From Lachnospiraceae bacterium (GTDB taxonomy: Bacteria > Bacillota > Clostridia > Lachnospirales > Lachnospiraceae), in NCBI GenBank assembly GCA_017433725.1, contig JAFRGQ010000083.1, forward strand, positions 1 through 64,000: 64,000 nucleotides of DNA, read 5' to 3'. The position numbers and the translations under genes were made by a program. Position 1 is the first letter of the stretch. Each line of letters opens with the position of its first letter. Shown here piece after piece: positions 34,060 through 43,323 of the stretch. Below the pieces are notes generated by a model, which saw only the letters and a program-made list of their open reading frames with translations, was not told where the DNA came from and did no database searches.

Positions 34060-34503
34060 ATGGCAAAATCACAGTATAAAACAAAACAGTACACCGAGAT
34101 GCTGGCCTTCATGGCATCTGTGCCCGGGCAGCAGATGACGGTACAGGAAATCTTTGAAGGGATGAAGAACAGGGGAAGCCGGATCGGTATGACGACGGTC
34201 TACCGCCAGCTTGAAAGACTGGTCGAGGCGGGCGAAGTGAACCGTTATGTTCTTGACAGCAACGGCGGAGCCCTTTTTGAGTATATAGACAGGCAGACCA
34301 ATTGCCATAAACCGGCGTGCTTTCATTGCAAATGCGAAAGCTGCGGCCGCCTCATCCACCTTGAATGTGATGAAATTGCCAATCTTCAGGAGCACATGCT
34401 CGCGCACCATGGATTCTCACTGGATCCGGTGAGAACCGTATTTTACGGCGTGTGTGAGGAGTGCAGGTCGAAAATCATGGGAATTCCTGTGACCGGCGTA
34501 TGA
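34060..34503 (+). CDS. Fur family transcriptional repressor, probably Zur-like
   Basis: A 147-residue metalloregulator. The N-terminal winged helix includes MTVQEIFEGMKNRGSRIGMTTVYRQLERLVEAGEV. The C-terminal dimer domain has the structural zinc cysteines C92-x-x-C95 (CESCGRL) and C132-x-x-C135 (CEECRSK), and the HHGF regulatory region. An extra HKPACFHC just before the first pair is notable. Fur-family proteins repress metal-uptake genes when metal-loaded. The znuC-like and znuB-like genes downstream favour zinc or manganese sensing. Start: ATG behind GGAGG. The 3' end merges into degenerate tandem repeats that run to znuC. Confidence 0.88.
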   Translation: MAKSQYKTKQYTEMLAFMASVPGQQMTVQEIFEGMKNRGSRIGMTTVYRQLERLVEAGEVNRYVLDSNGGALFEYIDRQTNCHKPACFHCKCESCGRLIHLECDEIANLQEHMLAHHGFSLDPVRTVFYGVCEECRSKIMGIPVTGV

Positions 34504-34760
34504 AACGAAAGGGAAGTAAAAGACGGCTCGACTGTACCGGTCAAAATCACGGGAATCTCTATGAATGGTGGAAACGGAAGGGAAGTAAAAGTCGTCTCTA
34601 CTGTACATACCAAAACTACGTGAAGCAATATGAGAGGTGATAACCGGCAGCGGAGTGAAAGACGGTCTACTTTACAGACATAAAACCACCGGAACCCCTA
34701 TGAAAAGTGTGTAAACCGAAAGAGGAAGTAAAAGATGGCTCAACTATCATGCAAAAATCT
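34480..34760 (+). repeat. Decayed tandem duplications of the znuC translation start
   Basis: About 70-bp units are repeated from the end of the repressor gene into the start of the ABC ATPase gene. The live ribosome site and start GAGGAAGTAAAAGATGGCTC (ATG 34735) has earlier copies GGAAGTAAAAGACGGCTC (ACG 34523), GGAAGTAAAAGTCGTCTC (TCG 34592) and GGAGTGAAAGACGGTCT (ACG 34662). Spacings are 69, 70 and 73. Flanking blocks such as AAAATCACGGGAAT, like AAAATCATGGGAAT at the repressor end, are also repeated. Confidence 0.8.
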
Positions 34761-35688
34761 GACACTCGGTTACGAAGGAGATGTCCTTGTCCGCGACCTG
34801 AGTTTTGAAGTGAATAAAGGTGATTATCTGTGCATCGTCGGCGAGAACGGATCGGGAAAATCCACGCTGATGAAAACCATTCTGAACCTGAAGAGTCCGA
34901 TGTCCGGGACCATCACGACAGGTGACGGTGTAACTGCCAGAGAAATCGGATATCTGCCGCAGCAGACGATCGTGCAGAGAGATTTTCCTGCCTCGGTCTG
35001 GGAAATTGTACTTTCCGGATGCCAGGCGAGGGGGAAGTTCCATCCATTTTACACGAAAGAGGAAAAGCGGATGGCCCGCGAGAACATAGAACGCATGGGA
35101 ATCACGGAATACACAGACCGCTGCTATCGTGAGCTCTCCGGCGGACAGCAGCAGAGAGTTCTGCTTGCACGCGCACTCTGTGCGACGCGGAAAATATTGC
35201 TGCTCGACGAACCTGTCTCCGGACTCGATCCGAAAGTGACAAATGATATGTACACCCTCATCGAGCACCTGAACAAGGAAGAGGGAGTTACGATTATCAT
35301 GGTCTCCCACGATGTACAGGCTGCAGTGCGTTACGCTACCCATATTCTCCACGTCGGAAGTACGATCTTTTTCGGAACGAAGGAGAAGTATCTTCAGAGC
35401 CGTGAAGGCAGACTGTTCACTGCAAGTATAGAAAGTGAGGAGAATCTGACGATTAAGAATCCTGCGCAGCAGGATATTAGAAATGAGTCTGAGAACATCG
35501 CAGCCGGAAATGTTTCTGCCAGCCGGAAAGAAAAAAACGACAGGAACACACAAGAAGCGAAGAAAGATTCTTATGATGGAGATATGAGTTCAGATAAACA
35601 AAGGGAAAATGAGCAACCGAAAGCAGGAGGTCTGCAGAACGAATCAGGTGATGTAATACCGCAGACAGGAGAGGAGGCCGGAAAATGA
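34735..35688 (+). CDS. Metal ABC transporter ATP-binding protein (ZnuC-like)
   Basis: A 317-residue ABC ATPase. Walker A is GENGSGKST, the signature LSGGQQQRVLLARAL, Walker B LLLDEPVSGLD, and the switch His is in VSHDV. Closest in style to ZnuC/MntB-type zinc or manganese importers. The ATPase core ends near residue 230; the last about 85 residues are a charged, disordered tail (RNESENIAAGN; KEKNDRNTQEAKKDS) not typical of the family. Start: ATG 34735 with GAGGAAG; this initiation region is the last of four tandem copies. It overlaps the permease start by four bases (ATGA). Confidence 0.9.
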   Translation: MAQLSCKNLTLGYEGDVLVRDLSFEVNKGDYLCIVGENGSGKSTLMKTILNLKSPMSGTITTGDGVTAREIGYLPQQTIVQRDFPASVWEIVLSGCQARGKFHPFYTKEEKRMARENIERMGITEYTDRCYRELSGGQQQRVLLARALCATRKILLLDEPVSGLDPKVTNDMYTLIEHLNKEEGVTIIMVSHDVQAAVRYATHILHVGSTIFFGTKEKYLQSREGRLFTASIESEENLTIKNPAQQDIRNESENIAAGNVSASRKEKNDRNTQEAKKDSYDGDMSSDKQRENEQPKAGGLQNESGDVIPQTGEEAGK

Positions 35689-36524
35689 TAGATACGCTCG
35701 TATACTACTTTGAATTTCCGTTTGTCCGGTACGCCTTGGTCGTCGGTGTGCTCATCGCACTCTGCTCGTCGCTTCTGGGGGTTACACTGGTATTGAAACG
35801 TTTTTCATTTATCGGAGACGGACTTTCCCACGTTGCTTTTGGTGCTATAGCAATCGCTTCAGTACTCAATCTCTCGAATGATATGTTCTTTGTACTGCCG
35901 GCAACAGTGATCTGTGCGGTCCTGCTCCTTCGGACCGGTCAGAACACCAAAATCAAGGGAGACGCTGCCGTCGCAATGATTTCAGTCGGAGCATTGGCGG
36001 TAGGTTATCTGCTGATGAATATCTTTTCGACATCCGCAAATCTGTCAGGTGATGTCTGCAGCACCTTGTTCGGATCGACCTCAATCCTGACGCTGTCCAT
36101 ATCGGAAGTGTGGCTTTGCGTGGTATTATCGATTGCGGTCGTGGTGATATTTGTCGTATTCTACAACAAGATTTTCGCGGTCACCTTCGACGAGGACTTC
36201 GCGAAAGCAGTCGGGACAAATGTTAATACCTACAACCTCCTCATCGCCGTGACCATCGCAATCATAATCGTGCTTGCGATGAATCTGGTCGGATCTCTCC
36301 TGATATCCGCGCTGGTCATTTTCCCGGCACTGTCGGCAATGCGCGTGTTCAGGAGCTTCAAGACAGTGACGATCTGTTCGGCGGTCGTGTCGGTCATCTG
36401 CGCGACGCTGGGAATTCTCATCTCGATCCTCGCGGGGACGCCGGTCGGATCAACGATCGTGGTCATAGATATCCTTGCTTTCTTTGCCGCATGCGTTGTA
36501 GGCAGAGTGCGCTATGGAGCATGA
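35685..36524 (+). CDS. Metal ABC transporter permease (ZnuB-like)
   Basis: A 279-residue membrane protein of the ABC-3 (ZnuB/MntC) family, with about eight membrane segments. FIGDGLSHVAFGAIAIA is the classic periplasmic-to-membrane block, and AMNLVGSLLISALVIFPALSAM is the EAA-like coupling region. It forms the channel with the preceding ATPase. The matching solute-binding lipoprotein (ZnuA) is absent from this window, so it must be encoded elsewhere. The gene converges with the minus-strand cobalamin operon. Confidence 0.92.
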   Translation: MIDTLVYYFEFPFVRYALVVGVLIALCSSLLGVTLVLKRFSFIGDGLSHVAFGAIAIASVLNLSNDMFFVLPATVICAVLLLRTGQNTKIKGDAAVAMISVGALAVGYLLMNIFSTSANLSGDVCSTLFGSTSILTLSISEVWLCVVLSIAVVVIFVVFYNKIFAVTFDEDFAKAVGTNVNTYNLLIAVTIAIIIVLAMNLVGSLLISALVIFPALSAMRVFRSFKTVTICSAVVSVICATLGILISILAGTPVGSTIVVIDILAFFAACVVGRVRYGA

Positions 36525-36582: not shown

Positions 36583-37674
36583 TTAATGATGAGATCGCTT
36601 AGAAAAATGCATGAATAACTCCCGATTCCTCGCATTCAGTGTCCCGAACTTTGTAAGACAGCAGATGACATCATCGCAGGAACTCGCGAGCGCTTTTGCA
36701 TTTTCAAATGCCTCATCGCCGATCGGTTCAAACGCCTCCTCCACGATGACTTCCGAAGCGAGTGCACACGCAATCGGGTACTCAAGATCATTTTTATGAA
36801 GTACGCCCGCAGCAAATGCAACCCCCTGCCGATGCAGTCTCCGGTATGTCGGAATCCCGCTTCCGCCGCCGCCTATTACAAACACGCTCGGTTTCCCGCC
36901 GGATTTCGGAAGCTCCGGAGAGCCGCAATATGTCAGATAACAGCCCTGTTCGATATCGAACAGGGTTTTTATATATTCATCTGAGAATATCTCTTCCGGC
37001 GTCCCCATCCTGTCAATCTGCCCGTTCTTTATGCACACTACGACATCGGAAACCTTCTGCGCCAGATCGATTTCATGGAGCGACATGATAACCGTGAGAT
37101 TCTTCTCCTTTACCAGTCTTCGGAGAAGGTCGAGAAGATCCAGCTTGTGATGAATATCGAGGTAAGAGGTCGGTTCATCCATCAGAAGAACGCCGGGATC
37201 CTGGCACAATGCTCGTGCAAGCAGGATGCGCTGCCTCTGACCGTCGCTGATTGCCCGGAAGGAACGTTCGGAAAGCTCCGTGGCATGTGTCAGTGCCATC
37301 GCTTCGTCAACTTTGAAATGATCTTCTGCCGAAAGGATTCCGAGACGGCCTGTATAGGGGTACCTGCCTGTCGCGACCACGTCGCGGCAGGTCATGAGTT
37401 CCGGATCGATCCTCTCTGTCAGAAGAAGGGACATACTTTTGGCTATTTCATTGGCGGAGAGAGATTTTATCGGATCTTTGCCGAGAAATACTGTGCCGCC
37501 GAGGGGCTCGAGCTGCTGAGCAAGCGTCTTTAGGAGAGTGGACTTGCCGGCTCCGTTGGGACCGATCAGAGTGAGAATCTGCCCCGGCCGGGCGTTCAGG
37601 GATATATTCCTGATGACGGGGCTTCGGTCATATCCGGCAGACAGGTCTTCGGTTCTGAGGGATAGATTTTTCAT
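36583..37674 (-). CDS. Cobalamin/heme-type ABC ATPase with extra C-terminal Rossmann-like domain
   Basis: A 363-residue protein. Residues 1-250 are a FecE/BtuD-type ABC ATPase: Walker A GPNGAGKST, signature AISDGQRQRILLARAL (the usual LSGGQ is ISDGQ), Walker B VLLMDEPTSYLD. Residues about 258-363 are an additional domain opening with SVFVIGGGGSGIPTYRRL, a dinucleotide-binding-like Gly-rich loop, and ending near FGTLNARNRELF. This tail is not part of canonical BtuD; it may sense or bind a ligand. Third gene of the uptake set: 31 bases after the permease. Start: ATG at 37674. An unusual palindrome with T5 on the + strand lies inside (36944-36970). Confidence 0.88.
   Translation of the reverse strand: MKNLSLRTEDLSAGYDRSPVIRNISLNARPGQILTLIGPNGAGKSTLLKTLAQQLEPLGGTVFLGKDPIKSLSANEIAKSMSLLLTERIDPELMTCRDVVATGRYPYTGRLGILSAEDHFKVDEAMALTHATELSERSFRAISDGQRQRILLARALCQDPGVLLMDEPTSYLDIHHKLDLLDLLRRLVKEKNLTVIMSLHEIDLAQKVSDVVVCIKNGQIDRMGTPEEIFSDEYIKTLFDIEQGCYLTYCGSPELPKSGGKPSVFVIGGGGSGIPTYRRLHRQGVAFAAGVLHKNDLEYPIACALASEVIVEEAFEPIGDEAFENAKALASSCDDVICCLTKFGTLNARNRELFMHFSKRSHH
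36944..36970 (+). terminator. Intragenic palindrome with T run, antisense terminator
   Basis: CCCTGTTCGATATCGAACAGGG is a 22-bp perfect palindrome, followed by TTTTTAT on the + strand. It lies within the minus-strand ATPase gene and would stop + transcripts running out of the metal-transport genes. Confidence 0.6.
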
Positions 37675-37705
37675 GAATAAAATCCTCGTTTAAAAGTGTA
37701 GGTAT

Positions 37706-38710
37706 TTACTTCCGATGAAGCAGCATCCAAATCACTACCGGAGCTCCGAACACTGCTGTCACAGAGCTGATCGAGAGCTCAGTGGGTGCAAATGCACACC
37801 TCGCAATCACATCGCACATGAGACAGAAGCAGGCTCCGCCGAGGAATGAAGCCGGTATGATAACGAGCGGTTTTGCCGTCCCGAAGAGATTCTTGACAAG
37901 ATGCGGGACCGCAATTCCCACGAAGGAAATCGGTCCTGCAAATGCCGTCACGCACGCCGACAGCATGCTCGACAGCAGGATAAGTTCCAGCCGGAACACA
38001 CGCACATTCACTCCCATATTTTGTGCATAGCCCTCGCCGAGCTGATATACGCTCATCGGTTTCGAGAGAAGAAAACTGAATAGCAGGCAGGGAAGAACGA
38101 TGAGAGTGAGGGTGCGTACATTTTCCCAACCGGTGCCCGAAAAGCTGCCGAGCGCCCAGTTGTGCAGGTTCACAATGTTCGAGTCATCCGCGAAAGTCAC
38201 CACAAAATCCGTGATTGCGGAACAGATATATCCGATCATGACGCCGCACACGACGAGAAGAGCCATATTGCGCACTTTGAGCGAGATGAGAAGCACGAAC
38301 CCCATGGAGAGAATTGCGCCTGCAAATGCTGCCGCCACCATCCCCCCGCTGCTCACCGTCAGGCCGGACCCGAGAAAGAAAATCATGGTCAGGGCAACCG
38401 TTAGTTTTGCACCGGATGAAATGCCAAGCACGAACGGTCCTGCAATTGGGTTATTGAAAAATGTCTGGAGAAGAAAACCGGAGACCGAGAGTGCTCCGCC
38501 GAGGATTGCTGCAGCTATCAGCCGCGGCAGCCGGATTTCCCAGATGATCTGCCCCTGTGTATCGGTAGATTCCCGGGATGTGAGCACGTGCAGGATTTCT
38601 CCCGGACTCAGACGTATGCTTCCGGTATTGATATTTAATAGTAAGAGAAGGACAAGCAGAAGAGCAAGGGAAAGAAAACATGCTGTCTGCCGTTTGGTTC
38701 TGTGTGACAT
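37706..38710 (-). CDS. FecCD/BtuC family ABC permease
   Basis: A 334-residue permease with about nine to ten membrane segments. Family blocks are IWEIRLPRLIAAAILGGALSVSG, NPIAGPFVLGISSGAKLT, and AGPISFVGIAVPHLVKNLFG (the cytoplasmic coupling helix). It transports corrinoids, heme or ferric siderophores with its partner ATPase and lipoprotein. It sits 24 bases after the binding-protein gene and 31 bases before the ATPase, all on the minus strand. Regulation by the upstream cobalamin riboswitch supports corrinoids or related tetrapyrroles. Confidence 0.93.
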   Translation of the reverse strand: MSHRTKRQTACFLSLALLLVLLLLLNINTGSIRLSPGEILHVLTSRESTDTQGQIIWEIRLPRLIAAAILGGALSVSGFLLQTFFNNPIAGPFVLGISSGAKLTVALTMIFFLGSGLTVSSGGMVAAAFAGAILSMGFVLLISLKVRNMALLVVCGVMIGYICSAITDFVVTFADDSNIVNLHNWALGSFSGTGWENVRTLTLIVLPCLLFSFLLSKPMSVYQLGEGYAQNMGVNVRVFRLELILLSSMLSACVTAFAGPISFVGIAVPHLVKNLFGTAKPLVIIPASFLGGACFCLMCDVIARCAFAPTELSISSVTAVFGAPVVIWMLLHRK

Positions 38711-38734
38711 GGTTATGTCTCCGTTATATGTCAG

Positions 38735-40033
38735 CTATTTTAATTTATGGAGAAATATCAGCTCATCCTCGTCCGCATGCCCGGTAACCACGGCATGGAG
38801 CTCCAGCATCATCTCTGCGACCGCAGTAGACTGCTGATACATGTTTTTGCCTGTGCCCCAGATATTTCCGTCGGATGCTGCCTTGCTCTGTTTCAGCATG
38901 GGTGCCTTTTTAAACAGTTCTTCCGCAGAATGCATCTCCCCGTCGATGGAGGTGCTGTAAATAAGTATATCGGAAACGAGAGCGCGGTCAAGAAAAGCTT
39001 CCATTTGCATGTTCATAGTCGCTTTGGCACTGTCCTCGGAGACAGAGACATCTGCAAATGCATAGGATCCGCCGGCCATCTCAATCATCTTAGAAATGTA
39101 ATCGCCGGGACTCCGCACATTGGCGTAGCCTGAAGAAGTGATGTAGAAGTAGGCTACAGTGGGAGAATCCTGCGAAGCGACGGGATTTTGTGCTGAGCCG
39201 GTAGAGGACAGCATTTTCGAAAGCTCCGGTACCGCCGTAAGTGATGCAAGCTGATCGTTGTAAAAAGCGTCCGCCTCATCTGTCTTACCGAGCAGGAGAC
39301 CGTAAAGTCTGATCCACTCCATCCTGCCGAGCGGGTGCGGCTCATAACTGGATTTATCTACAAGAACGGGAACTCCGAGCTTTTCTATTTTTTCTTTCGT
39401 GTCGGGAGTATGGTAGATCATGGTCGACTCAATAGCCAGATCGATTCCTTCGCGCAGCAGCAGCTCGTAGTCGGGGGCGCTGTACTTGCCTGCATAGAGC
39501 ATTTTTTCTGAGTCGAGAGCCTGCACAACTTCGGGTAGGCTCCAGTTCACTGCCTGTGTGCTGGTCATGCGAACTGTATCAAGAGCTTTGAGTACCCGGA
39601 AATAATCCATTCCGGCTGATGCTGCAAGATAGATTGTATCCGGTTTTTGTATCGGGATTATGTCTGTGTCGAGATCTGCCGGGGCTTTGGCATTTTCAGG
39701 AATGAGAAGATAGCGGTCTGTGCCGCCGATGGTAATGAGTGCAAAGTCGTCATAATAGTCGACAGAAAACTCGGTTGCATAGTCAAGCGGCATGTGACCC
39801 GTAGGCTCCGTAGCATTCCAGGAAGTGGCATGGGAATCAGTTATAGCCGAATCTGCCGCGCCACGTGAGGACGTTTGGGAACCGATTTGTTCCGATGATG
39901 CTATATCGGATGAGGTTACCCGGGATTCAGTCTGTGCCGGAGAGGATGCATTAGATGCACAACCTCCGATAATCCACATACAGAGCAGAAGAGCAGAAAT
40001 TATTAGTGAAAGTCGATGTCCGGAAATGTGCAT
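38735..40033 (-). CDS. FecB/BtuF-type ABC substrate-binding lipoprotein
   Basis: A 432-residue lipoprotein. The signal peptide ends with the lipobox WIIGGC (about C25), followed by a Ser/Thr-rich linker to about residue 90. The rest is the helical-backbone PF01497 domain: PDTIYLAASAGMDYFRVLKAL, KMLYAGKYSAPDYELLLREG and LVDKSSYEPHPLGRMEWI. It captures the ligand outside the membrane and passes it to the FecCD permease. The gene is separated from the upstream lipoprotein gene by 303 bases that hold a hairpin and a palindromic repeat, so expression may be attenuated there. Confidence 0.9.
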   Translation of the reverse strand: MHISGHRLSLIISALLLCMWIIGGCASNASSPAQTESRVTSSDIASSEQIGSQTSSRGAADSAITDSHATSWNATEPTGHMPLDYATEFSVDYYDDFALITIGGTDRYLLIPENAKAPADLDTDIIPIQKPDTIYLAASAGMDYFRVLKALDTVRMTSTQAVNWSLPEVVQALDSEKMLYAGKYSAPDYELLLREGIDLAIESTMIYHTPDTKEKIEKLGVPVLVDKSSYEPHPLGRMEWIRLYGLLLGKTDEADAFYNDQLASLTAVPELSKMLSSTGSAQNPVASQDSPTVAYFYITSSGYANVRSPGDYISKMIEMAGGSYAFADVSVSEDSAKATMNMQMEAFLDRALVSDILIYSTSIDGEMHSAEELFKKAPMLKQSKAASDGNIWGTGKNMYQQSTAVAEMMLELHAVVTGHADEDELIFLHKLK

Positions 40034-40075
40034 AGCCGGTTCCCTCCTTTTCAGACGATGGAGTCATACAATACC

Positions 40076-40136
40076 GTCCGGGTTCAAGTCACGTTTTCGA
40101 GACTTGGCGTGGGTTTCAGGTCAGCGTCAGCTGACA
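40076..40136 (+). repeat. Palindromic element, TTCAAGTC family
   Basis: GGTTCAAGTCACG-TTTT-CGAGACTTGGCGTGGG, then TTTCAGGTCAGCGTCAGCTGA. The first part aligns with 7141-7172 and the second with the reverse of 10660-10690. Confidence 0.6.
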
Positions 40137-40212
40137 TAAATCTAAACGGAAGCCTGTACATCTTTATGAACCCATTTATGCGAAAAACTTCGGTGGAGCA
40201 TTATGTAACAGA

Positions 40213-40264
40213 GTAGCAAATTCCCGGCAGGAACACTGTGAGAGTCTGCCGGGAACTGGCTACT
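40213..40264. terminator. Stable hairpin, possible attenuator within the operon
   Basis: GTAGC...TTCCCGGCAG pairs with CTGCCGGGAA...GCTAC. On the minus strand no T5 follows, so termination is likely partial. Confidence 0.45.
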
Positions 40265-40336
40265 GTTTGTTTTGTCTACGAACGTAAGCACGGAACGATA
40301 CGTAATCGACTTGTGGCTTCTTAATCAAAAATGTGC

Positions 40337-41374
40337 TTATGCAGCCGGTGTCAGTGATGCACTGTCAAATGTAAGCTTGTAATCAATAAGATGCGGCGTG
40401 CTCATCGCAGTCGTATCCGCACTGACCGGCATCTTATAGTCAAATCCGGTCACCGGGATTTCGAAAGTCGAGTTTCCATCTGAGTTTACCGGGTCGAAAC
40501 GTTCTCCATTTACTACCATAAAGTCGTAGTTGGAACTGCTCCAGATAATCTCTGCAGTTACACTTCCGTCTTTAACGGTAACTTTTGCAGGAGATGTCAC
40601 GGAGGCTTTTCCGGAACCGCCTTCGAGAGTGACCTCGGCAGTATACGTACCGTCAGCAAGATTCAAGTCTGCCGGATCCGTGAAAGAATTGTTCTTAAGC
40701 GCTTCCTGCGGAAGAGAATCCGCACGGAAGAGGAGTGTGCGGTCATACCATTGCTCTTTGCGTTTGCTGTAAGCCGCGCAGGGAATTCCTTCATCGAGCG
40801 CTTCGACAGGTACCGTGAAGGTGTAAGCTCCGTCCGGTGTTTCTTCATATGAAATATAGTCCGATTCGCTGGCAGAGACTGCTTCTTTTCCGGTTCCCAT
40901 GAAGAGATAGAGATAACCGGTGCCGGACATAGTCATCACTGCGCTCATAGAGTCGTCGGAAACGGCAAGAGTGCAGTTCGTGATCTTGAACATTGAGGAG
41001 CTGGAATCTACAGTGATGGGGTAGACGCCATTTTCAATTTCATCCGCGTGGATCGGCACCATTCCTTTTTCAACTACATCCACAATATCTGTCATCTCAT
41101 CAGCCGAGGCGACACCTTCTACCTTCGATTCCTCATTCTGTGAGTCTGAAGTATCGGCAGCAGCAGTTTTGCCGACTGCAGAGTCACCCGGTTCCGCACT
41201 TGCAGATTGATCTGCTTTGGAAGAAGCTGCATCACTATCATCGTGTGCGGTTGAGCTATCTGTGGCAGCAATGTTAGCATTTGTATTTCCTGCTCCGGTA
41301 TTGCCGCATCCGGTCATGATACTCTGGGAAAGAATTGCGGCAAGTACAAGGGCAAGCGTTCTTTTATGAATCAT
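40337..41374 (-). CDS. Lipoprotein of unknown function in the cobalamin-controlled operon
   Basis: A 345-residue lipoprotein. Start: ATG 41374 behind CGGAG gives a signal peptide ending in MTGC; the longer start at 41401 has no site. After a low-complexity Ser/Asp/Ala linker (to about residue 90) come two beta-rich halves. The first has MFKITNCTLAVSDDSMSAVMT and GYLYLFMGTGKEA. The second has DGTYTAEVTLEGGSGKASV and MVVNGERFDPV. The halves have the strand pattern of a cell-surface ligand-binding beta-sandwich, perhaps NEAT-like, but I cannot assign a family. It lies between the exported CbiK and the uptake ABC genes, so a role in binding or relaying a tetrapyrrole outside the cell is plausible. 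Confidence 0.75.
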   Translation of the reverse strand: MIHKRTLALVLAAILSQSIMTGCGNTGAGNTNANIAATDSSTAHDDSDAASSKADQSASAEPGDSAVGKTAAADTSDSQNEESKVEGVASADEMTDIVDVVEKGMVPIHADEIENGVYPITVDSSSSMFKITNCTLAVSDDSMSAVMTMSGTGYLYLFMGTGKEAVSASESDYISYEETPDGAYTFTVPVEALDEGIPCAAYSKRKEQWYDRTLLFRADSLPQEALKNNSFTDPADLNLADGTYTAEVTLEGGSGKASVTSPAKVTVKDGSVTAEIIWSSSNYDFMVVNGERFDPVNSDGNSTFEIPVTGFDYKMPVSADTTAMSTPHLIDYKLTFDSASLTPAA

Positions 41375-41440
41375 AGCATAATCTCCGTTTGCAGCAGCCA
41401 AGACCGCTGCATTATTTTCATCAAATACTTCGACTGATTC

Positions 41441-42538
41441 TCAGGAAAGTGCCTCGTCAACAGCTTTCTGCGCATGTGCAACATAGATCTCATGGATAGC
41501 ATCAACCGAACCGAGACCCTCGAGAACACACTCAACGTTATATCCGGCTGCCTCAAAGATGCTCTTCCAGGAATCGTCTTCATCACCCGCCATATCGTTA
41601 TTGGCGTGATCACCTGCGACGACCATGAGAGGTCTCAGCACAACACGTTTGTAATCACCGGCTTTGACCTGTTCAAGGACGTCCGTGACGGACGGCGTTG
41701 CTTCCACCGTTCCGATATAATAGTTGTCATACTTATCTGCCTTGAGATTCTCCTGCATCTTGCTGTAAATCGCGTTAGAGTCCGCTTCGGTGCCGTGACC
41801 CATGAAGACGATTGCGGTCTGTCCGTCATCATAGGATGCAGTGGCTCCTGTGATAGCTTCCTCTACAGATTTGAAGTCCTCATCCGTGCTGAGGAGCGGT
41901 TCACCGATGGAGATTTTGTCAAATGCATCCGCATACTGGGATACTTCTTCCGTGAGATCCGTGTATTCAAGGCCGTTCATCAGGTGGGTAGGCTGAACAA
42001 CAAGCCTCTTAACGCCGTTTGCGACAGCGCGGTCGAGAGCCTGCTTCACATTGTCAATCTCTTCTCCGTCACGGCTCTTTACATGATCGATAATGATCTG
42101 GCTGGTAAACGCTCTTCGTACGCTCCAGTCCGGGAAAGCTTTCTCCAGAGCATCTTCGATAGCTCCGATCGTATTGCGGCGGTTATCGTTAAAGCTTGTT
42201 CCGAAACTTACCACTAAGAGCTCATTTTCTCCGATGTCATCCTGATTTCTCGGATTGTCGAGGGAAGCGTCTCCTGTCTCATAATTTTCTTCCTCAGCTT
42301 CTTCTGCTACGGAAGAATCGGCGGCGGAAGTTTCAGCTTTAGTGTCCTGAGAAACGGATGTATCCGTATTGCTTTCGGCGAGAGCAGATTCTTCTGCTGA
42401 TATAGTATTATCGTAAACCGAAGATTCATCAACAGCTGTTTCTGTAGTTCCTGTACCGGAAGTAGTTGTTCCTCCGCATGCTGCCAGAGATGCAATCGCC
42501 ATGGATGCGATGAGAAGTGTTGCAAGTGCCTTTTTCAT
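41441..42538 (-). CDS. cbiK: Exported CbiK-type sirohydrochlorin cobaltochelatase lipoprotein
   Basis: A 365-residue protein with a lipoprotein signal (lipobox SLAAC, C21) and an acidic linker to about residue 100, then a full CbiK domain. The metal-site residues fit the spacing known for Salmonella CbiK (H145, E175, H207): here H248 in MGHGTEADS, E279 in TVEATPS and H311 in VAGDHANNDMAGD. QPTHLMNGLEY is also typical. Cytosolic CbiK inserts cobalt into sirohydrochlorin; exported forms are known in Desulfovibrio, where the periplasmic one also binds heme. Being outside the cell, it is more likely a tetrapyrrole or metal binding or chelating protein than a step of cytosolic B12 synthesis. First gene of the riboswitch operon; ribosome site AGGAGG. 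Confidence 0.92.
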   Translation of the reverse strand: MKKALATLLIASMAIASLAACGGTTTSGTGTTETAVDESSVYDNTISAEESALAESNTDTSVSQDTKAETSAADSSVAEEAEEENYETGDASLDNPRNQDDIGENELLVVSFGTSFNDNRRNTIGAIEDALEKAFPDWSVRRAFTSQIIIDHVKSRDGEEIDNVKQALDRAVANGVKRLVVQPTHLMNGLEYTDLTEEVSQYADAFDKISIGEPLLSTDEDFKSVEEAITGATASYDDGQTAIVFMGHGTEADSNAIYSKMQENLKADKYDNYYIGTVEATPSVTDVLEQVKAGDYKRVVLRPLMVVAGDHANNDMAGDEDDSWKSIFEAAGYNVECVLEGLGSVDAIHEIYVAHAQKAVDEALS

Positions 42539-42655
42539 TGTGTCCTCCTGAAAAGATTTTTAGTGGGTCGACAGTTACAGCAGAGGCGTTGGCCAACCAT
42601 GCGAATAAGGCTGCGTATTAGCGGAACCGCTTCGCGAACCCGATAATCATAATTC

Positions 42656-42676
42656 GGCGCATATCTGCGCCTTTTT
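42656..42676 (+). terminator. Hairpin with T run on the + strand
   Basis: GGCGCA-TATC-TGCGCC followed by T5. On the minus strand it is simply a stem in the cbiK leader. Right beside it is a second stem, AAGTTGCTGCGCAACTT. Confidence 0.5.
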
Positions 42677-42789
42677 ATCGAAAGTTGCTGCGCAACTTCC
42701 GATAAGATATATTACCGAGTTTTGTCAGTCTGATTATCTAGTGCCCCGGAGAGGCATAAATGCCGGCGTCAGCTGACATTTTCACACTG

Positions 42790-42819
42790 AAAAACGCCTC
42801 CATCGAATAGATGGGGCGC
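42790..42819 (-). terminator. Intrinsic terminator downstream of the riboswitch
   Basis: Read on the minus strand: CGCCCCATC-TATTC-GATGGAGGCG, a nine-pair stem with one bulged A, followed by T5. It lies about 140 bases after the riboswitch and 250 bases before cbiK. It is a good candidate for the expression platform. Confidence 0.7.
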
Positions 42820-42957
42820 TGTGCAGGACTCGTTTTCAAACGAGTGAAAGCAGCCGTCTCCTTTGGGAACTTTTCCATCAAGAAAAAGCCGTCCGGGACG
42901 ACATGTGATAGCGCAACCAAATCCGCGTGGCCTTGGGACAAAAACATCCCTGCACTG

Positions 42958-43144
42958 ATAACCGGCAGGTTTCCTGGCTTATGGGTACGCGGTATCTCCG
43001 CACGCTTCAAGCTGCCTTCCCGGCGATTGCCAGTGACCGTGCATATGCGCATTGCTTCAAGCTCCCCATTCACAGTGACGGGTTCGTACAGGAATCTCAC
43101 CTGTTTCTCTTTTACCCTGATGCTGAAGATCAGGCACCGGTTAT
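42958..43144 (-). promoter_or_regulatory. Cobalamin riboswitch
   Basis: On the minus strand the P1 stem is ATAACCGG at the 5' side and CCGGTTAT at the 3' side (perfect). Conserved core parts follow in order: GAGAAACAGGTGAGATTCC, GAACCCGTCACTGTGAA, GGTCACTGG, GGGAAGGC, and the B12 box AGCCAGGAAACCTGCC. The element binds adenosyl- or methyl-type cobalamin and normally switches off the genes behind it when the vitamin is plentiful. All genes down to 36583 lie on the same strand behind it. Confidence 0.95.
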
Positions 43145-43184
43145 ACTCATATTGATGCTGTCTGCAATGACAGATATCTGCTTT

Positions 43185-43190
43185 ATTATA
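43185..43190 (-). promoter_or_regulatory. Extended -10 promoter of the riboswitch operon
   Basis: On the minus strand: TGCTATAAT (extended -10) about 40 bases upstream of the riboswitch P1. The -35 is poor, which an extended -10 tolerates. Confidence 0.6.
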
Positions 43191-43323
43191 GCATTGCTCA
43201 GCTGATAATGACAGTGAGAATCGCATTTTCGGAAGTCTTGAATAAATATGAAGGGAGTGGTATGCTTTTTTATGAAGAGTGTGTTCTGCACATATGTAAA
43301 TTTCAAGGAAGGAGGCATGGATC

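Follow-up and report, generated by a model that had tools for sequence, protein, structure and literature searches.

Described systems closest to the operon

Cobalt insertion is the role of the CbiK family of chelatases. This report addresses an operon on the minus strand of a stretch of 64,000 nucleotides from a Lachnospiraceae bacterium (assembly GCA_017433725.1, contig JAFRGQ010000083.1, positions 1 to 64,000; hereafter the window), in which a cobalamin riboswitch precedes the genes of an exported CbiK, of a second lipoprotein with two NEAT-like domains and of a complete ATP-binding cassette (ABC) transporter. Its genomic context supports well the proposal that it encodes a B12-controlled surface system capturing or metallating a tetrapyrrole before uptake. 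The operon is real, widespread and partly anticipated by the Iht system of Porphyromonas gingivalis and the CbiK of Desulfovibrio, while its NEAT component, its gene fusions and its link with the loss of precursor synthesis are undescribed in the literature found. Indeed, no description of an exported CbiK in Clostridia, or of a NEAT protein associated with cobalamin, was found in the literature searched, which covers few subscription journals.

In P. gingivalis, according to the available portion of one source, a CbiK-like lipoprotein, IhtB, is encoded with its own substrate-binding protein (SBP), permease and ATPase and is suggested to be a reverse ferrochelatase (PMC10913741). These four components are shared with the window operon. 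However, Iht as described in that portion includes a TonB receptor, includes no NEAT protein and is devoted to heme/iron uptake (PMC10913741). A TonB-dependent receptor is not expected in a Lachnospiraceae-type cell, and a riboswitch is unmentioned for Iht in the P. gingivalis literature searched for the word, the comparison being one by description.

The periplasmic CbiK of Desulfovibrio (PDB 2xvx-2xvz) lies outside the cytoplasm like that of the window, and no NEAT protein is known to be associated with it. A B12 element controls cbiK-cbiL together with btuCDF in Desulfovibrio, as stated in the accessible part of PMC545781. The Isd-type NEAT relay (IsdB/IsdH, IsdX1, IsdE) has the same NEAT fold, a class III SBP and a FecCD-type permease, but the window operon differs from it by a lipid-anchored tandem NEAT-like protein, a mostly HxxxY motif, a chelatase partner and a cobalamin riboswitch. 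Canonical Isd systems are linked to heme and iron. HmuS, a de-chelatase of Bacteroidota, is likewise an extracytoplasmic chelatase involved in tetrapyrrole scavenging in the excerpts available (PMC13227078; PMC12583661); it belongs to the CobN/ChlH class and shows no similarity to CbiK (PMC13227078).

Lastly, the portion at hand of the genome survey of Shelton et al. reports bacteria that possess the corrin pathway but lack early tetrapyrrole genes, and defines a class of tetrapyrrole precursor salvagers, primarily Firmicutes (PMC6461909). The same portion names no importer of ring precursors, and lists P. gingivalis as devoid of the steps leading to precorrin-2 (PMC6461909).

Organization of the operon and of its leader

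The whole unit and its features, all located on the minus strand, are the following.

36583-43214 (-): whole unit, with a promoter-like site, an aptamer, a terminator-like hairpin and five genes
43185..43214 (-): extended -10 promoter-like site, TG before TATAAT (consensus match 10/12)
42947..43156 (-): cobalamin riboswitch aptamer (RF00174, 91.4 bits, gathering threshold 31.5, E 2.4e-21)
42888..42902 (-): terminator-like hairpin and U-run 3' of the aptamer, in a structured leader; attenuator candidate
41441..42538 (-): exported CbiK (class II chelatase) lipoprotein of 365 aa (PF06180, lipobox)
40337..41374 (-): tandem NEAT-like lipoprotein of 345 aa, counted from ATG 41374 (predicted fold; PF05031 below cut-off)
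38735..40033 (-): substrate-binding lipoprotein, class III (Peripla_BP_2, PF01497)
37706..38710 (-): FecCD/BtuC-type permease (Pfam, E 4e-81)
36583..37674 (-): ABC ATPase extended at its C-terminus by about 100 aa (Pfam; PRK09536 alignment below cut-off)

An earlier reading made from the letters of the window (the sequence-only reading) had proposed an extended -10 promoter, a cobalamin riboswitch and an attenuator-like terminator, and all three were recovered. The TG and TATAAT end at 43185 and a -35-like CTGTCA lies at 43214; a covariance-model search aligned the aptamer over the full model (1-189) and found no other one in the genome; a stem followed by UUUUU occupies 42902-42888, just 3' of the aptamer. 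Furthermore, the 421 nt of leader 3' of the aptamer fold better than shuffled sequences (z -6.3). This leader of about 400 nt, which extends from the aptamer to cbiK (window 42540-42946, minus strand), also displays several palindromes. The five genes probably form a single transcript, and neither a promoter-like nor a terminator-like site was seen on the operon strand in the 303-nt gap between the NEAT-like and SBP genes. Directly downstream, convergent with the operon, the window carries genes of a Fur-family regulator, a ZnuC/AztA-like ATPase and a ZnuB/AztB-like permease (34060-36524, plus strand).

An exported chelatase of the CbiK family

The first gene encodes, as had been claimed, a CbiK lipoprotein with its metal-site residues. 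The protein scores 277.8 bits against a PF06180 cut-off of 26.2 (E 1e-82), and its N-terminus is a textbook lipoprotein signal, with a lipobox LAAC at Cys21 followed by a long linker rich in acidic residues and serine. His248, Glu279 and His311, presumably the catalytic residues as in Salmonella CbiK, are kept in 169, 165 and 169 of 169 CbiK domains, respectively. A cytosolic form of the window protein arising from an internal start is unlikely, because the sole in-frame start codon between residues 22 and 135, GTG 109, falls within the first strand of the domain. Among 12 carriers, ten have one CbiK match and two have two. A quick tree of exported and cytosolic CbiK (92 of the 169 domains sampled, 39 of 89 inner branches left open, nine export labels corrected by hand) displays one change of state and is supportive only.

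Among PDB chains, the protein matches Salmonella CbiK (166 bits) and, almost equally, 'Heme-binding protein FetB' (158 bits), FetB being another name of IhtB. This near tie is in favour of a different function, heme acquisition, in which the exported CbiK would act as a reverse ferrochelatase and the NEAT-like protein and ABC transporter would import heme or the freed ring. The NEAT fold and the SBP matches described below point in the same direction, as does the precedent of IhtB in the available text of PMC10913741. Nevertheless, the cobalamin riboswitch and the linkage and fusions with cbi genes argue against a plain heme system, which is therefore kept only as a rival and appears quite improbable.

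Various other CbiK proteins were encountered. In six loci from several genomes of the family (L010, L012, L021, L022, L024 and L029), CbiK forms the rear part of a fusion with an ABC ATPase that carries the Walker motif GANGSGKST and looks CbiO-like by eye, and no export signal was seen. Plasmid pNP174 of Methanosphaera sp. ISO3-F5, a rumen methanogen, carries near a transposase a CbiK of about 260 aa, whose domain is 55.5% identical to that of the window CbiK and which is too short for an export signal and a linker.

A tandem NEAT-like lipoprotein and its transporter

The second lipoprotein had been left unassigned in the sequence-only reading; it can now be described as NEAT-like. It matches PF05031 at 27.3 bits (E 5e-6) and is called NEAT-like only because the gathering score of 32.8 is missed; its predicted fold is that of NEAT domains. 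It carries a lipobox, MTGC, and two NEAT-like domains, the second of which displays HxxxY at the place of the YxxxY motif of NEAT domains. Among 61 sequences, 55 have HxxxY and six YxxxY, this place being equated with the heme motif by motif and not by residue-level structure; sequence comparison with PDB chains was too weak to extend to the NEAT heme motif.

Related proteins show other architectures. A 243-kb plasmid of Roseburia sp. 831b encodes a CbiK-NEAT fusion of 642 aa followed by an SBP, a permease and an ATPase, and the NEAT part of this fusion passes the PF05031 cut-off (33.6 bits). In two loci (L191 and L192, on G291:C98 and G232:C1), the NEAT matches fall within much longer open frames, of about 1000 aa, possibly encoding multi-NEAT surface proteins; that of G232 adjoins binding-protein, permease and cbi genes.

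The claim of a BtuFCD-type transporter held in part: an SBP, a FecCD permease and an ATPase are all encoded, but a corrinoid specificity is not singled out. The SBP (Peripla_BP_2, E 4e-20) has a predicted fold that ties among siderophore, heme and B12 binders; its profile best matches Lmo2184 among PDB chains (E 3e-9), IsdE, a heme protein, coming third (E 0.001). The permease is best matched by BtuC, below the equivalog cut-off (224.2 against 334 bits). Residues 7-339 of the ATPase align with PRK09536, a corrinoid ATPase model of 402 residues, below its cut-off. The C-terminal extension of the ATPase (window 36586-36885, minus strand) is conserved in the nine relatives aligned, but it matches no Pfam family and none of its PDB matches is convincing; the PRK09536 model seems to carry a similar one.

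These two corrinoid-related matches, both below cut-off, the cobalamin riboswitch and the histidine of the NEAT-like protein at the expected metal-ligand place are what would be expected if CbiK and the NEAT-like protein were corrinoid-binding proteins that supply a BtuFCD-like importer with finished or late corrinoids, such as cobamides or cobinamide. Such a function is rather unlikely: mere binding does not need the His/Glu/His residues that are conserved in CbiK, and carriers without precursor synthesis keep CbiC and other Cbi genes (see below), which would be superfluous for the salvage of late corrinoids.

Conservation, fusions and linkage with cobamide genes

A NEAT profile search of 597 candidate stretches of genome contigs yielded at least 589 relatives, the best 80 of which were kept (the best set); a second set gathers 20 CbiK loci picked for long frames. 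The best set includes Lachnospiraceae, Oscillospiraceae, Ruminococcus flavefaciens and others, and cultured carriers include Agathobaculum butyriciproducens, Evtepia gabavorous and R. flavefaciens. CbiK adjoins or is fused to NEAT in 78 of the 80 loci (two by fusion, 76 with no more than 552 nt between the genes), the exceptions being L062, in whose upstream DNA a search at E 1 still gave no CbiK, and L082, located at a contig end; in the second set it lies next to NEAT in 17 of 20. The gene-neighbourhood survey that the sequence-only reading had suggested thus revealed a conserved gene order, usually CbiK, NEAT, SBP, permease and ATPase. Chance or artefact is ruled out by this conservation across best-set loci.

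The riboswitch is conserved as well. It precedes 70 of the 74 best-set loci for which 356 nt or more of upstream DNA is available, 66 being detected by the B12-box and four by Rfam (the B12-box alone missed eight, of which Rfam recovered four), and was found by neither approach in L081, L099, L119 and L132. The background of the B12-box is 48 in 2000 random stretches of 700 nt. With the same upstream length, 15 of the 16 NEAT loci of the second set have a riboswitch, which is missing in L050.

Fusions link the components with each other and with corrin biosynthesis. CbiK-NEAT fusions occur in L085, L110, L186, L187, L219, L220 and the Roseburia plasmid, NEAT-SBP fusions in L058, L091, L112, L125, L126, L040 and L049, and ATPase-CbiP or ATPase-CbiD fusions in L096, L101 and L105. 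Moreover, cbi/cob genes lie within the locus in 34 of the 80 best-set loci (CobC alone in L122). In one genome (G066), the operon leads straight into cbiP, cobT, cobU, cobS, cobC, cbiB and cobD, the run continuing with cbiC, D, F, G, H, J-E, T and A; ten of these names were checked by NCBIfam, cobU, cobS, cobC, cobD and cbiA being assigned by eye. The absence of cytosolic corrin-pathway genes proposed by the sequence-only reading is true of the window operon but not of its genome, which encodes cbiC and, by similarity, cbiP. A plasmid search returned 24 records, none with 80% of the query covered; one RefSeq plasmid record annotates parts as 'sirohydrochlorin cobaltochelatase' and 'iron ABC transporter permease'.

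Association with the loss of precursor synthesis

The distribution of precursor synthesis was analysed in 299 genomes, which sample the family at nearly one genome per genus and comprise 171 with CbiK, 113 with the NEAT profile, 171 with CbiC, 129 with HemC and 134 with SUMT above cut-off. As many as 106 of the 113 NEAT-positive genomes have CbiC, which argues further against heme acquisition. HemC and SUMT are both absent from 48 of the 106 genomes with CbiC and NEAT versus six of the 65 with CbiC but no NEAT (Fisher 4.8e-7, kinship ignored). At a completeness of at least 95%, HemC is absent from 33/70 versus 3/51 of these genomes, and the status of HemC and SUMT is concordant in 168 of the 171 CbiC genomes. 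This comparison was prompted by the P. gingivalis parallel, which is a prompt and not a confirmation, since HemC and SUMT were examined after the parallel had been met.

The number and location of the chelatases follow the same division. More than one CbiK match was obtained in 35 of 55 NEAT-positive genomes with HemC and SUMT versus none of 48 without them (44 have one, four none). All 35 CbiK inspected from NEAT-positive genomes without HemC and SUMT are exported (32 by pattern, three by eye; N-termini were read for part of the genomes and the count includes G256, which has no CbiC), versus none of the 20 inspected from NEAT-negative genomes with both enzymes, four of which matched the lipobox pattern only within a fused ABC ATPase. 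Loss of the precursor pathway thus goes together with loss of the cytosolic chelatase, the exported CbiK being retained. The clusters read in genomes without HemC and SUMT (e.g. G297 and G174) encode CbiC plus CbiD, F, G, H, J, E, T and A, and CbiL was confirmed in two such genomes (G190 and G232).

Type I, the operon type of the window, is represented by the 27 genomes whose NEAT matches rank highest, the boundary being set arbitrarily at E 9.3e-104. CobN (PF02514) had no match in any of these 27. Other chelatases were sought through PF01903, and its matches lie within CbiK genes except in G053 and G048, where they correspond to CbiK-sized frames; both genomes have a second CbiK match.

This link with HemC and SUMT loss would be left unexplained if the exported CbiK concentrated Co2+ or a cobalt complex for import independently of any ring. 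Such cobalt scavenging would agree with the role of the family in cobalt insertion but is highly improbable; NEAT domains and class III SBP/FecCD importers generally carry large ligands. In its favour, cobamide riboswitches also regulate cobalt transport, according to the accessible part of PMC7689651.

Proposed mechanism and points that weigh against it

Export signals, predicted folds, gene order, the riboswitch and co-occurrence are what was directly seen. As the operon is commonest in genomes that have the B12 ring pathway without apparent synthesis of its starting material, it may collect that material. Losing precursor synthesis while keeping corrin genes makes an early precursor such as sirohydrochlorin, rather than finished corrinoids, the likeliest substrate. 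For genomes in which the pathway starts from cobalt-sirohydrochlorin, no sirohydrochlorin synthesis is seen and the sole chelatase is exported, capture, metallation outside the cell and import is the simplest reading. The operon is thus tentatively regarded, at slightly less than even chances, as a B12-repressed surface machine that scavenges a tetrapyrrole from the early part of cobamide synthesis, sirohydrochlorin being the likeliest one. The surface capture or metallation of a tetrapyrrole before uptake suggested by the sequence-only reading gains support from context, its likeliest substrate moving to an early precursor; that reading had missed the double NEAT-like protein, the wide distribution of the operon among Clostridia, Lachnospiraceae included, and its association with precursor loss.

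At low B12, the leader would be read through, as presumed from its known riboswitch class. The lipid-anchored CbiK, exported according to its sequence, would take sirohydrochlorin outside the membrane and insert Co2+. The tandem NEAT-like protein would then receive the metallated ring and may hold its metal through the His/Tyr found at the heme-ligand place; as gene order and fusions suggest, the ring would be imported by the class III binding protein and the FecCD/BtuC-type ABC transporter. Finally, CbiL and other Cbi enzymes would convert the imported ring to a cobamide. We infer the substrate, direction, activity and B12 response. The broader proposal that many Clostridia of the gut and rumen insert cobalt outside the cell, sirohydrochlorin shed by neighbours being metallated, relayed by NEAT proteins and imported by the ABC transporter, is more doubtful.

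Several points weigh against this salvage mechanism. At the protein level, the window CbiK is not classed as a proven cobaltochelatase because it misses the cut-off of NF047852, the sirohydrochlorin cobaltochelatase equivalog (237.4 against 400 bits), and NEAT domains and the relative IhtB are linked to heme. Shelton et al., in the portion available, verified the use of 5-aminolevulinic acid (ALA) in three species and not that of ring precursors (PMC6461909). CbiL was found in only two of 15 genomes without HemC and SUMT, the scanned stretches not covering the genomes.

Other points concern the distribution. Among the 26 type-I carriers with CbiC, HemC and SUMT are present in 19 and both absent in seven; the contrast with non-carriers is weak (7/26 versus 6/65, p 0.045), the strong link stemming from other NEAT-positive genomes (41/80), and the genomes are not phylogenetically independent. 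In nine type-I carriers with HemC and SUMT (G002, G049, G119, G147, G172, G255, G276, G280 and G289), the sole CbiK match is exported and neither another CbiX nor CobN was found; simple salvage does not account for these carriers, and strains of this kind, if they make sirohydrochlorin, might even export it to be metallated. Conversely, no CbiK match was obtained in four genomes with CbiC and NEAT but without HemC and SUMT (G040, G094, G142 and G293), which may import an already metallated ring or have a missed CbiK gene, nor in the type-I carrier G003, in which NEAT is present. Neither HemC nor SUMT is present in the genome of the window, which is only 76.8% complete; G209, of the same genus, has both, its inspected CbiK being devoid of a lipobox.

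Significance for cobamide metabolism in gut and rumen bacteria

The proposed mechanism would let bacteria that synthesize neither uroporphyrinogen III nor precorrin-2 use the corrin pathway. The operon is a candidate for a widespread importer of ring precursors and has cultured carriers. If the proposal is true, these carriers would salvage ring precursors, the question becomes testable, and the B12 economics of gut and rumen communities would include a form of cross-feeding that is new.

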